Virus record (IMG/VR): IMGVR_UViG_3300017783_000044
Coordinates: 1-47,123 of that record
Source: a virus
Length of the DNA: 47,123 nt
Direction: 5' to 3' (one strand)
The position numbers were made by a program, and so were the translations under genes. Positions 9,627-47,123 of the stretch are shown piece by piece; position 1 is the first letter of the stretch; each line of letters begins with the position of its first letter. The notes beneath the pieces are model-generated. The model made no database searches and was not told where the DNA came from. It saw only the letters and a list, made by a program, of their open reading frames with translations.

Positions 9627-9922
9627 AGGTCACCAAATTTATCACGCATATCTTCCATTTGTTTTTTCTTTTCTGAAAAAACACCATCGATATATCCTGC
9701 ACGATATTCCCAAGTTTGACCACCCTCTTGTCCTTTCTTAGGATTAATACATTGATGGTTACCTAGCTTGTTGCAAACAAGACCAGCAAGGTCAAGCTCA
9801 CTAGAATCAGATGAATCCCCAGTGCCACGCCAGACATGTGTACCATTAATCCAGGTGGCCCCGCACTTTTCGCATTCTTTCCTTTGCAATTTCAAATCAG
9901 ATAGTTGCTTTTCGTTTTCCAT
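9623..9922 (-). CDS. Small cysteine-containing cyanophage protein, unknown function
   Basis: This is a 99-residue unknown protein. It has CEKCG at 17-21 and a second Cys pair at 50 and 58 with His56 nearby, a possible zinc site. A Ser/Asp-rich loop lies at 35-44. The C-terminus is helical and charged (residues 80-99). It lies between gp16 and gp17, which are adjacent in T4, so the small genes here are a cyanophage-type insertion into the terminase region. A TGGTATAAT promoter element lies about 29 bases upstream, and AGGA precedes the ATG. A packaging accessory role is possible but unsupported. Confidence 0.75.
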   Translation of the reverse strand: MENEKQLSDLKLQRKECEKCGATWINGTHVWRGTGDSSDSSELDLAGLVCNKLGNHQCINPKKGQEGGQTWEYRAGYIDGVFSEKKKQMEDMRDKFGDL

Positions 9923-40823: not shown

Positions 40824-41093
40824 TTAGGTCAAGACTCTCGGGTTACCAGATACCCTCTTATGGAAACAAGTATCAAAATCTCCTATTCTGGTAACAGGAA
40901 ATCCATTCATCAGGACTCTTGGTTGCGTTGTTGTAGTAACAGCAATGTGAGTTGGTTTTGAGTCATGTGGTGCTACAATATCACCGACTGTACTAGTTGG
41001 TCTTCCACCTACAATAATATTTGGAGTTGCTGTAGAAATTACTGGAGCAGCATGACTATTGATGTCTCCTATACAAACTTGTGGTCTAGGCAT
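40824..41093 (-). CDS. PAAR-type tail spike tip protein (gp5.4-like)
   Basis: This 89-residue protein has repeated GD and PH/HD patterns: CIGDINSHAAPVIS, STVGDIVAPHDSKPTHIAV and RIGDFDTCFHKR. They form the small PAAR cone, which caps the central spike of contractile tails and binds a metal through His and Cys residues. T4 gp5.4 (97 residues) is the counterpart. His14, His43, His48 and Cys81-His83 are candidate ligands. It is adjacent to a large structural gene (one-base overlap with the 1332-residue gene) and near gp25. Confidence 0.9.
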   Translation of the reverse strand: MPRPQVCIGDINSHAAPVISTATPNIIVGGRPTSTVGDIVAPHDSKPTHIAVTTTTQPRVLMNGFPVTRIGDFDTCFHKRVSGNPRVLT

Positions 41094-44000
41094 TATGCTT
41101 CCCTCAAACTAAAGACTGTGTATTGTGCTATACTAAAACCTCGTTCATAACTAGTTATAGCAGGTGGTGACCCAATTATTTTAGTTGGATCTGGAGAAGC
41201 TCCAAATATAGAAACAAGTCCAGTCCCTTTAAACCAATTCGGTTTTTGTGCTTCAAATACATCACCAATTTTTGCTGAATCTAAACCAGCGGCTTTTTCC
41301 CAGAGTGTATTACCTAATTTTTCAATTTTGTATTTAACCCCTTTCTGCATTTCCCCAGCAGTAATGCTACTTTCAAAGCCAGGAGATGTGCCGAAACATC
41401 CCCTTTTGCAGTTATCAAACGATGTCTCAGTTTTTGAACCGTAATAGATAATTTCCTCTCCAGAGTAAGAAAATATAGAGTTATAGTTTCCAGTTTCATT
41501 TATAAGTATTTTTTTAGTATATTTTGGAATAATTAGGTATCCACTAGAGAAAAATCCTGCAGTAGATGCTACTTTAATATTATTGTCACCTCTTTTTAAT
41601 TCATCAGTTAATTTAGCAAGTAATGGTTCATCAATAAATGGGTTACCTTTATTTAAAATTGTCTCACCAATCATTTCAGAAATTTCATTCATCCTAAAAT
41701 GGAACATTTTATAATGGTCCATTTGATAATTTACATTTGGTAACCAAATATTTTGTGGATGAACAACAGCTGTTGGTAAAGATAAACTAGAATGTTCAGG
41801 TTTTTCTTTGTGATTAAGATCTCTTAATTGTGGTGGTAAGAACCAGTTAGTGTTAATAGTATAGTTGTTTGGCCATGCAGTTCTATCATAAAATTGTATA
41901 TCAGTACCATTAGTTGGATTTGTCCAATTTGCAGTAACAGTTGCAATTCCGTTAGGACATGTAGCAGTTACAACAAGCGTTACAGGATCATTAGTACTAG
42001 TAATGGTTTCTACATATCCACCTACATCTTTAGTAATATTTACTTTTATATTAGTAGTGTGATTAGCACCAGTAAAAGGAAAAACTGTTTGATCGGGTGT
42101 AGAAGTGCTCCATTTTGGCTTAGACCTAAAAACCATCGTTGGTTGATTATGGGTTGTAGTTGGATCTAAGTTAATTGTTGGATCAAGTGCTCTATTATCA
42201 GAAAATTGTACATCCGATGTAAAGAATTTAACCCTATCCATTGCTGGTGGTATGTTTCTAAAGTTAGATGTTTTGAACGTTATACCAGAAGAGTCTTCAC
42301 CCTCGATTTGTGGGGGTAAATTTGTAACTTTTTGTTTAGGAATTGACTCTCTTACTTTACTTGATCCTTTTTGTATCCTATTAAACAAAGAATTTTCATT
42401 AGTAATCAACCGTTTATAGTATTCTTCCGATAAAATAGATGATTGTGAGAGTGATTTTGACACAATTTCACTAAAACGGTCTTTTACATCGTTTAAAGTA
42501 TTAGATTGCGACTCAGATGGGTTAAGAATTTCATTTTCTTCCACACAAACATCACTAATTCCAGAATCAACGGATTGCAAAGCAATATTAATATCTTCTG
42601 CCTCTAAAAATGGGTCATAAGATTGAAAATATTCAAGATCAATTTGATCACGACACACATCATCTTCAACTAATACCGCTTTTTTTCCGTTTAAATTAGT
42701 TTGTACGTATGAATTAATAAAATTATACAAAACAATGATGTTACGACCAGATATTTCATACACTTCACGGAATGTTTCATAAAGATCTATGTCAAGTGGA
42801 GCATTAGTGAATGAAAGATAGATTGATGCAATCTTATATGCATCATCTGTTTCTGGTCTTGTTAGTAAAAATTGACCTGTTGTTTTAGAACCATCATCCC
42901 AAAGAATACTTCCTAGGGTATAATCACCAGTTTCTTCTTCTAAAACATATTTTTCACAGAATGGATCCGCAGAATAGAAAACTGGTTGATATGTTACACT
43001 CTTTTTATCAAAACTAAAGTAAGTTCCTACAACTGCTGAACGATTTGTAATACCTTTACCAGCACGTACTATAATTTGTGCGCCTTTATCAGTAGTATGA
43101 GTAGAGTCTGCAGTAAAAGATCCACCACTAATAGTAGCATAACATAGTGTATGTTTACTAACTCTATTAACTTCGTCGTTAATTACAAGTATTGATTTTA
43201 AATCGGATGATTTTATCTTCTGATTTAACCAAACTATTCTATTTGTGGGGTCTACTGCAACAACTCTAGTACCTTCCTCAAGTCCTTTACCTCCAATTTT
43301 CATACGATGTGATATATCATCAACATCATCTAAACGTACCCAAGATTGAGCATTAGAATAATCTGAAGATGTATAACCTAAATTGATAAATCTTGCCTCA
43401 CTGACTTTTTTATCAACTCTTCCAGGAGTAGAAAATTGATTTACACTACGTCTTAGTCCAGTAGCAACAACATAATTGACAACATTATTAATTGTTGCAC
43501 CACTTACAGTATCACCAATAGAAACTAAATCTGTTGTACCCTCTTCAAGACCTTCTAGAGTAACTGTAAATGATCGAGCAAATGTATTATTACCATTTTC
43601 TGTCTCAAACCAAACACGAATACTATTCTCACTTTCAACTTTTACTTTAGCAAGTTGAGGATTTGAGGTTACTCCAGATGCAGTTAGATTAGAATCTACA
43701 GTTACAGAAACATCTCGCGCACTAGTAACCTTCTTATTGTTAAATGTGATTAGATAATGTTTTCTTCCTTTCTTAAAATTATTTGCTCCTTCGTCTGATT
43801 TAGATTTTGATTCAATCTGTACAGTGCTAACTGAAGACGTTAATGATATATCTTGATTTAAACTGTCATTAAAATCATGAAGTATACTAGCAACTACACT
43901 GGAACTATTTCCACCCTTACTTTCTACGTAATTAAAGAAAATGCAATCATCATCTGTACCACCATGATAGATGATTGGACTTCCTATCTTCTCACTAACA

Positions 44001-45091
44001 TTATTTGATACACTATCAATTTTAAATGTTGCGTTAGTATCATTCCCATCAGTATCTTTTAAGATAATTTTATTACCACTTACAGTATAACCACCACTAT
44101 TACCATTTAATTTTACATCATATGTCTGACCTGCTTCCAATAAAACATTTTGTGTAGTCTTACCAACTTCACCACCACCATCACGAATCCATATCTTACC
44201 ACCAAACTCTACAGTTTCAATTGCTTTACCATAAGCATTGGGATCATCATCCCATTCTAATGTAAATGTTGCTAATGAACTGCCTGTACCAGTAACATTT
44301 AAATTACCACTACTATCAAATGATGGACTAACTTCACCATTACCACCCTGAACTCTTCCTAGTGAGTCGAAGACAACTGGTTCATATACCCAATCTGATG
44401 TGCCATCTGTACCACTACCAGGTACAATCCAATATATTTCACTGTCTACACCTGTTAAAGTTAAATCTGCACTAAATGTTGCAGCATGTTCATATTGTGT
44501 ATATGTGGTTGTAGTTGTACCACTGCCGGGGATCTCTTCTCCTTCATCATCAGTCTGATTAGCACTTGTACATGTTACTGATTCTTCTACAATACCAGCA
44601 ATCTTTCTTGGTTTGATTGTGTGTGAAGTAGGCCAATTAAAGATATGTTGAAAATATTGTTCCTCATACGTATCATTTGGTTTACTTTCTAATTCAAATT
44701 TTGGTATCTGTTCATTATCACCAACACCTTGAATACTTTGTGAATATAGGTATTGACGTTCAAGAATTGAAGAGATATCAAAATCTCCATCTACATCATT
44801 AACTGCCGTTGCTAAATTAAAACGACTCATATTAGGCATACGTCTAGAATACGTAATCGCCTTGATAGGATTACCATAACTATCAGTACCGCTAAGACTA
44901 CTGCCGACATCCCCAACTTCAAAATAACTATTCTCTACTAGATCAGTTATATTTTGAGTTGAAGGAACCGCAACTGTATTACCATCATCATCAGTACTAG
45001 TTGTGGTAGTCTGAAAAGTTACCTTACCCGTTTTACTATGATTGGGTTTTGGTCGAGTATTTTCAAATCTATCCCTTGTTTTCTGTGCCAT
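41093..45091 (-). CDS. Large structural protein of unknown assignment, upstream of PAAR
   Basis: This 1332-residue protein is rich in Thr, Ser, Asn and Gly, with beta-type segments. It has no lysozyme motif (no Glu-x8-Asp-x5-Thr block seen), so it is not a simple T4 gp5 homologue. Residues about 1170-1237 carry a module with STAGFFSSGYLIIPKY and EEIIYYGSKTETSFDNCKRG, shared with the two other giant baseplate proteins. Residues about 950-1130 include LPPQLRDLNHKEKPEHSS and NVNYQMDHYKMFHFRMNEI. The SD-like AGGA precedes the ATG at 45091. The one-base overlap with PAAR and the upstream AbrB-like gene suggest one transcript. A hub or fibre role is likely, but unproven. Confidence 0.8.
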   Translation of the reverse strand: MAQKTRDRFENTRPKPNHSKTGKVTFQTTTTSTDDDGNTVAVPSTQNITDLVENSYFEVGDVGSSLSGTDSYGNPIKAITYSRRMPNMSRFNLATAVNDVDGDFDISSILERQYLYSQSIQGVGDNEQIPKFELESKPNDTYEEQYFQHIFNWPTSHTIKPRKIAGIVEESVTCTSANQTDDEGEEIPGSGTTTTTYTQYEHAATFSADLTLTGVDSEIYWIVPGSGTDGTSDWVYEPVVFDSLGRVQGGNGEVSPSFDSSGNLNVTGTGSSLATFTLEWDDDPNAYGKAIETVEFGGKIWIRDGGGEVGKTTQNVLLEAGQTYDVKLNGNSGGYTVSGNKIILKDTDGNDTNATFKIDSVSNNVSEKIGSPIIYHGGTDDDCIFFNYVESKGGNSSSVVASILHDFNDSLNQDISLTSSVSTVQIESKSKSDEGANNFKKGRKHYLITFNNKKVTSARDVSVTVDSNLTASGVTSNPQLAKVKVESENSIRVWFETENGNNTFARSFTVTLEGLEEGTTDLVSIGDTVSGATINNVVNYVVATGLRRSVNQFSTPGRVDKKVSEARFINLGYTSSDYSNAQSWVRLDDVDDISHRMKIGGKGLEEGTRVVAVDPTNRIVWLNQKIKSSDLKSILVINDEVNRVSKHTLCYATISGGSFTADSTHTTDKGAQIIVRAGKGITNRSAVVGTYFSFDKKSVTYQPVFYSADPFCEKYVLEEETGDYTLGSILWDDGSKTTGQFLLTRPETDDAYKIASIYLSFTNAPLDIDLYETFREVYEISGRNIIVLYNFINSYVQTNLNGKKAVLVEDDVCRDQIDLEYFQSYDPFLEAEDINIALQSVDSGISDVCVEENEILNPSESQSNTLNDVKDRFSEIVSKSLSQSSILSEEYYKRLITNENSLFNRIQKGSSKVRESIPKQKVTNLPPQIEGEDSSGITFKTSNFRNIPPAMDRVKFFTSDVQFSDNRALDPTINLDPTTTHNQPTMVFRSKPKWSTSTPDQTVFPFTGANHTTNIKVNITKDVGGYVETITSTNDPVTLVVTATCPNGIATVTANWTNPTNGTDIQFYDRTAWPNNYTINTNWFLPPQLRDLNHKEKPEHSSLSLPTAVVHPQNIWLPNVNYQMDHYKMFHFRMNEISEMIGETILNKGNPFIDEPLLAKLTDELKRGDNNIKVASTAGFFSSGYLIIPKYTKKILINETGNYNSIFSYSGEEIIYYGSKTETSFDNCKRGCFGTSPGFESSITAGEMQKGVKYKIEKLGNTLWEKAAGLDSAKIGDVFEAQKPNWFKGTGLVSIFGASPDPTKIIGSPPAITSYERGFSIAQYTVFSLREA

Positions 45092-46368: not shown

Positions 46369-46511
46369 AGGGGTTTTTTGGCTGGGAAAATTTTTTTATT
46401 TTAGAGTGACATCGAGTGGTCGAATCTGGTCCGTTATAGATTAGGGTAGTGCGGCGTTTTCGCTCACGGACGGGGGACCAGAGGCCAGGCCCTCCCGTTT
46501 CCTCTCTTGAC

Positions 46512-46751
46512 TCAGCCGGATGTCTTGAAGTAAGATGAGGCGTTGCCGGCGACGACTGAACGGGTCGCTGTCACAGCAGAGGGCGATGTCTGTCCTCGGC
46601 GGTTGGTGTTAGAGCGACTGCCTTTTGTCATGCTCATGGGTGTCTCACCCTTACGTGGACCACGTTGCTTGAGCACTGTGACCTTGACTGTCTTGCCGTT
46701 TGCCTGTAGGGCAGTGGCGATGTCGAGCAGGTTCTGAGTGGCGGTTGTCAT
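46512..46751 (-). CDS. Small basic protein of unknown function, GC-rich region
   Basis: I start at the ATG at 46751, giving 79 residues; the longer alternative at 46802 begins with TTG that is part of the -35 box, so it is not likely the start. Sequence: an N-terminal helix (ATQNLLDIATALQANGKTVK) with following VTVLKQRGPRKGETP, then a Ser/Thr/Arg-rich tail. The segment KQRGPRKGETP looks like a nucleic-acid-binding loop. The coding sequence is markedly richer in G and C than the structural genes. No family is recognised. Confidence 0.62.
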   Translation of the reverse strand: MTTATQNLLDIATALQANGKTVKVTVLKQRGPRKGETPMSMTKGSRSNTNRRGQTSPSAVTATRSVVAGNASSYFKTSG

Positions 46752-46779
46752 GTGGTTTGTTTTGTATGTGGCTATTGTA
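46749..46779 (-). repeat. Duplicated leader, copy 1
   Basis: This 31-base stretch, from the start codon through the -10 box, is nearly identical to 47042-47073. The two differ by one inserted base and one substitution. On the minus strand both read TACAATAGCCACATAC-(A/G)-AAACAAACC-(C)-ACATG. Confidence 0.8.
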
Positions 46780-46802
46780 CAGGGTAAGCGGTCAGATGTC
46801 AA
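46774..46802 (-). promoter_or_regulatory. Near-consensus sigma70 promoter
   Basis: On the minus strand TTGACA (46802-46797) is followed after 17 bases by TACAAT (46779-46774). That is a perfect -35, optimal spacing and a 5/6 -10 box. It lies two bases after the stop of the upstream gene and 22 bases before the ATG at 46751. It should be strong for host RNA polymerase, giving early expression. Confidence 0.82.
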
Positions 46803-46804
46803 CG

Positions 46805-47044
46805 TCAGACCAGCAACTCAAGAGCAGGTGATGCAGCATCGATTGTCTCGTCGGCATAGACTCTCACCCAACGGATCGGATCACCAGCAGTCAGACGCCA
46901 GATCATCATGTCTCCATCCTCTCCCCCTGCCCTCCACTGTCGGCAGATCTCGTAAGCGTGTGAGATGTTGATGGCGTAGTCAGCACCCGCTTGATCGAAA
47001 CATCCCCAGGCGTTAGGTTGGACAGCGAAGGTTGGCAGAGTCAT
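46805..47044 (-). CDS. Small protein of unknown function, GC-rich region
   Basis: This 79-residue protein starts MTLPTFAVQPNAWGCFDQAG and includes DYAINISHAYEICRQWR (22-38), DMMIWRLTAGDPIRWVRVYA (45-64) and an acidic C-terminus. Hydrophobic and charged residues alternate as in a folded globular domain. No known family is recognised. Its start region carries copy 2 of the duplicated leader. The gene is GC-rich compared with the structural module. Confidence 0.65.
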   Translation of the reverse strand: MTLPTFAVQPNAWGCFDQAGADYAINISHAYEICRQWRAGGEDGDMMIWRLTAGDPIRWVRVYADETIDAASPALELLV

Positions 47045-47073
47045 GTGGGTTTGTTTCGTATGTGGCTATTGTA
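47042..47073 (-). repeat. Duplicated leader, copy 2, with -10 box
   Basis: This 32-base copy of the leader at 46749-46779 includes a TACAAT -10 box at 47073-47068. Its -35 region is weak: at spacing 18 it reads CTCTCA, which matches TTGACA in three of six positions. Confidence 0.75.
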
Positions 47074-47123
47074 GGCCATAGCCCCCTCCTCTGAGAGGGC
47101 CGTTGTGACAGTTTAGAAATCGA

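Follow-up and report, generated by a model that had tools for sequence, protein, structure and literature searches.

Near-identical start signals of two unrelated small genes as the probable core of an early promoter-leader cassette in T4-like cyanophages

The window analysed here, a whole viral contig of 47,123 bases (IMG/VR record IMGVR_UViG_3300017783_000044), represents, to judge by its gene content, part of the genome of a T4-like marine cyanophage, since its plastocyanin, ferredoxin, PAAR and baseplate genes are ordered as in isolated Kyanoviridae. Its end is the edge of a GC-rich early small-gene cluster: the late structural genes have a GC content of about 0.35, which rises sharply to 0.55 past position ~46,380 (46380-47123). 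A gene for a 1332-aa protein (41093-45091), for which Pfam gives nothing and PHROG only partial matches to head proteins, adjoins a ferredoxin-like gene and that of a PAAR protein (40824-41093).

Two small genes lie on the minus strand of this edge, each encoding a 79-aa protein of unknown function. Gene 1 (46512..46751), assigned to family 2 in our clustering of downstream proteins, matches neither Pfam nor PHROG and has relatives at 97% (L115) and 89-90% (L116-L118), as well as in the isolates S-SCSM2R, S-8S53, S-CAM9 and S-PRM1. Homologs of this gene in the window and in three other loci (L098, L093, L092) have the first 27 codons in common and continue into two unrelated C-terminal parts, which therefore points to a swap inside a tiny gene. 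Gene 2 (46805..47044) belongs to phrog_6036 (PHROG E 1.2e-30) and to family 1 of the same clustering, with relatives in 64 cyanophage records. The assignment to different families agrees with an earlier note on this DNA, which had called the two proteins unrelated.

Upstream of both genes (46751-46512 and 47044-46805) the minus strand reads TACAATAGCCACATAC(A/G)AAACAAACC(C)ACATGAC, the gene 1 copy being TACAATAGCCACATACAAAACAAACCACATGAC (46779->46747) and the gene 2 copy TACAATAGCCACATACGAAACAAACCCACATGAC (47073->47040). Over about 33 bases, a single substitution and a one-base indel are all that separates the copies. With up to 3 mismatches allowed, the pattern occurs in the window at these two places only and is absent from 100 dinucleotide-preserving shuffles, a chance expectation of zero, which confirms the near-identical block of 31-32 bases reported in the earlier note. 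Both copies begin with a -10 box TACAAT, at 46774..46779 for gene 1 and 47068..47073 for gene 2 (minus strand), and transcripts are predicted from the sequence to start at 46767 and 47061, respectively. The resulting leaders, AUACAAAACAAACCAC (46752..46767, 16 bases) and AUACGAAACAAACCCAC (47045..47061, 17 bases), would be A/C-rich and devoid of a Shine-Dalgarno sequence.

Beyond the -10 box the two genes part ways. Gene 1 has a -35 box TTGACA (46797..46802, minus strand) with a spacer of 17, and its promoter TTGACA-17-TACAAT (46802-46774) is of the host type, with 11 of the 12 bases of a strong sigma-70-like promoter; neither a stem-loop nor a ACTGTCAC element is found there. At gene 2 there is no consensus -35, nor was any TTGACA-type promoter called, and the place of the -35 is occupied by a hairpin, GGCCCTCTC-AGAG-GAGGGGGCT (47080..47101, minus strand; 9 pairs, -16.3 kcal/mol), with no U-tract. 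In relatives, this position is taken by a different hairpin or by a true terminator. Further upstream, 39 bases from the -10 box of gene 2, lies ACTGTCAC (47105..47112, minus strand), the right arm of a cyanophage upstream element whose left arm is degenerate here; only 50 bases of contig precede that box. The perfect TTGACA that had been pointed out at gene 1 stands, but the region described as a weak -35 at gene 2 is not merely weak, as it has a different upstream element. Both this element and the hairpin are additions of the present analysis.

The upstream element recurs in other phages. Among 49 non-redundant anchors, picked by their -10 and leader only, the right arm ([CG][TC]G[TG]CC?AC) occurs between -42 and -34 in 21, of which 18 have it at -37 or -38, compared with a mean of 0.34 and a maximum of 4 in shuffled upstream sequence; because the pattern was first spotted by eye, the comparison with shuffles is only descriptive for the discovery set. 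The whole element, approximately GTGACAGTY-N4-5-AACTGKCAC, forms an imperfect dyad. No covariation is seen between its arms (5.63 vs 5.51 for swapped arms), and for that reason it is read as a putative DNA-binding site. A sequence-only model of it, R1, was built on 59 sites with leaders of the window type excluded. In every one of 11 genomes of isolated cyanophages R1 predicts 8-22 sites, against none in T4 and KVP40; three of the 11, S-PM2 (14 sites), P-SSM4 and Syn1, were outside the training set and serve as an independent check. In Syn9 there are 10 sites, mostly in a small-gene cluster at 43-53 kb. The gene 2 site (47067-47119) gives a weak score of 8.9 bits (E 0.1), equalled in the window by a second match at 9837 that covers the model partially and is without a -10.

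Among the leader anchors, TTGAC at -35 is found in 0/21 with the element vs 7/30 without it (Fisher p 0.03, a value not corrected for relatedness of the anchors), and the core therefore joins two promoter types. These upstream types are not strictly exclusive, since 3/74 composite sites contain TTGAC together with the element. Composite sites are enriched for TTG only (24/74 vs a shuffle mean of 3.6), most of them lacking TTGACA, and in 19/70 the spacer folds more strongly than its shuffles (z < -1.5). The same upstream element also precedes a second recurrent leader type, TATATTRGCCATGTTGAGAGRAACACC, which lacks the A/C-rich leader and stands ahead of other genes (L092 15125 and 16643, L132 8651, L136 7686, L095 7866).

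Doron et al. reportedly described, in the ISME Journal in 2016, a novel non-host regulatory element of Syn9 early genes that is common in T4-like cyanophages, and are said to have assigned host-like promoters to middle genes. The upstream element may be this Syn9 early element, with which the R1 sites clustered among the small genes of Syn9 agree; gene 1, unlike the Syn9 early genes with that element, has a host-like promoter. Sigma-70-like promoters have been noted in S-PM2 and Syn9 (PMC2984593), and that of gene 1 is of this type, whereas gene 2 and most composite sites are without TTGACA. According to the same 2010 review, it is unclear how the early and middle genes of T4-like cyanophages are transcribed (PMC2984593).

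Could a shared factor account for the block itself? The earlier note had suggested that it binds a common regulator, and the conservation does cover the discriminator and the leader, beyond the needs of a minimal promoter, as expected if it were an operator for a single phage regulator, or an RNA element to which a protein or sRNA binds so that both genes are co-regulated after transcription starts. Such a regulator is not needed, however, since the block coincides with the -10 box, discriminator, start site and mRNA leader, and in diverged orthologs it degrades to an A/C-rich string. The separate ACTGTCAC element, present at gene 2 and absent at gene 1, is a candidate regulator site, and the dyad to which it belongs makes a better operator candidate than the block. 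A search of eight related loci, the window not among them, gave no match to any known RNA family in Rfam, and we regard an operator or RNA element within the 31 bases as distinctly improbable. A reading as RNA structure was rejected on this lack of an Rfam family in the eight loci and on the missing covariation of the dyad arms.

The block extends well beyond the window. A 16-mer scan of viral contigs returned 57 stretches, and those with a leader extension all come from phage contigs resembling the window; the remaining matches, including prophages of other bacteria, were removed as chance hits for want of that extension. A 33-mer BLAST against phages gave mostly noise outside cyanophages. 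A host origin of the core was likewise rejected, as the exact 23-base pattern was found among genome contigs in two unrelated bacteria and in no cyanobacterium. The core or close variants of it occur in the isolates S-PRM1, S-8S53, S-CAM9, S-T4 and S-SKS1, and, when the downstream proteins were clustered, it proved to precede members of 14 unrelated families, spread over 27 phage genomes or contigs, some of these near-identical to one another. The search for further copies in related phages that the earlier note proposed has hence yielded many. Being found ahead of 14 unrelated families, the core is not a private duplication, and genes 1 and 2 are alike in their start signal because both carry a promoter-plus-leader unit that these phages reuse widely.

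The near-identity of the two copies in the window could by itself suggest a recent local event, in which one gene received a copy of the other's leader, in this phage or a near ancestor, too recently for the two to have diverged. Against this, orthologs of both genes in other contigs have the same core, 12 further families are also preceded by it, and the identity of leaders within a genome is not above that between genomes: 0.87 for two genes of the same genome, 0.85 for two genes of different genomes and 0.87 for orthologous genes. As same-genome leaders are not clearly more alike than between-genome ones, the leader sequence is long-standing, and recent duplication or gene conversion was rejected for lack of any within-genome excess; we leave it a very slight probability, the lowest of all the alternatives. 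Where the earlier note had the unit copied or conserved apart from the genes, the 14 families favour conservation apart from them, and the leader identities speak against a recent local copy.

Comparisons between contigs show that genes have been exchanged or inserted between copies of the unit, the evidence for breakpoints near leaders coming from a few contigs. Between the window and contig G009, leader 2 is 93% identical, gene 2 only 47%, leader 1 89% and gene 1 96-97%; identity falls inside gene 2 and recovers at the gene 1 leader, and therefore genes have been exchanged between units. Against contig G007, gene 2 is 96% identical and gene 1 is 91% identical over its first 27 codons and 41% thereafter, which places this breakpoint 27 codons inside gene 1, off the leader. 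A DUF7249 gene with its own leader separates the two homologs in G002, G011 and G012; its place in G008 is ~7 kb away, behind another leader type. The term "promoter-leader cassette" proposed in the earlier note is apt, because the unit recurs before unrelated genes and the breakpoints show gene exchange, but the cassette is mobile only as a recombination joint.

Swaps bounded by or near leaders, together with the gain or loss of the leader-bearing DUF7249 gene, are also what would be seen if the core were kept mainly by recombination between copies, as a PeSL-like joint or through gene conversion, with little selection as a leader. We find this unlikely: copies in the same genome are not homogenised relative to other genomes, and the start-site rule and the A/C-rich leader without Shine-Dalgarno persist in diverged orthologs that have lost the exact core.

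This start-site rule emerges from the distance between the -10 box and the first start codon. Counted from the first base of the -10, transcription normally starts 12 bases on, and exactly there the first start codon is found in 19/70 composite sites (17 of these 19 with ATG). The genes concerned are, given that normal distance, predicted to be leaderless, with which the GenBank starts in S-CAM9, S-T4 and Sf-CH3 agree. In the other composite sites the start codon comes at least 27 bases on, with none at 13-26, apart from six sites with a start codon at offset 10, mostly in a GCCATGTTGAGAG-type leader. Genomes unseen before bore this out, with 3 starts at offset 12, 1 at 10 and 14 at 26-37. A purine occupies offset 12 at every one of the 62 tabulated sites, of which 17 are leaderless and 45 leadered, and most often a T follows at base 13. 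For the S-PRM1 cores at 142720, 142974 and 143225, transcripts are accordingly predicted to start at 142732, 142986 and 143237. A Shine-Dalgarno-like word is present in only 10 of the 45 leadered sites.

We tentatively propose, at a little under even chances, that the early genes of cyanophages share a two-state 5'-end module, where one purine-U start would give either a leaderless mRNA with AUG at +1 or a short leader free of Shine-Dalgarno beginning with AUAC at +1, the module being swapped between unrelated genes and freely paired with the phage element or a host -35. If so, one start-site rule would govern the translation of dozens of takeover genes. A limited literature search found no description of a common 5'-end module that takes both a leaderless and a leadered form.

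PeSLs are small promoter units, often with a stem-loop, which are repeated between small variable genes and act as joints for gene exchange. They were reportedly described as promoter-early stem-loop cassettes of T4-type phages by Arbiol in 2010 and Comeau in 2014, and by analogy they are the nearest known system. As in T4-type PeSLs, near-identical copies stand before unrelated small genes in variable regions (14 families), and exchanges or indels are bounded by copies, as seen in a few contigs with G009 and the DUF7249 gene. The sigma-70-like promoter of PeSLs has its counterpart at gene 1, with gene 2 lacking the consensus -35; as to their stem-loop terminator, gene 1 has none, gene 2 has the hairpin without a U-tract, and several relatives have true terminators. 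Unlike PeSLs, the cyanophage units have the -10 plus leader as their conserved core, and their hairpin, often absent, separates the upstream element from the -10; many sites use a cyanophage-specific element instead of a consensus -35, and leaders are absent or lack a Shine-Dalgarno. The density of PeSLs in the ORFanage of S-PM2 was judged too low to explain gene acquisition there (PMC4503421); R1 predicts 14 sites in that genome.

On these comparisons of sequences, the 31 bases are probably the core of a PeSL-like promoter-leader cassette of the early region, kept by selection and serving as a recombination joint. This core would comprise the -10 box, the discriminator, a probable start 12 bases from the first -10 base, the A/C-rich leader of 16-17 bases and the ATG, joined to a host-type -35 at gene 1 or to the ACTGTCAC element and hairpin at gene 2. 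Both genes would be transcribed by the RNA polymerase of the host, carrying the main sigma factor, gene 2 being placed in the early class through its upstream element and gene 1 able to follow host-like timing. The unstructured leader would allow ribosomes to load without a Shine-Dalgarno, as in the leaderless form with ATG at +1, and the shared stretches, like the PeSLs of T4-type phages, would offer the homology at which genes are exchanged.

The outcome is a precise model of promoter and start site, with predicted sites in the isolated phages Syn9, S-PM2 and S-PRM1, which suggests that leaderless or Shine-Dalgarno-free early mRNAs are widespread and indicates the joints where small, probably host-directed genes are exchanged. 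The model also aids the correct calling of small genes, some homologs being now annotated on the wrong strand. The gene 1 homologs of S-CAM9 (L133 6496-6714) and S-PRM1 (L132 18556-18795) both carry an opposite-strand annotation, in the former case as a long-chain-fatty-acid-CoA ligase, which is probably a mis-called frame in each.
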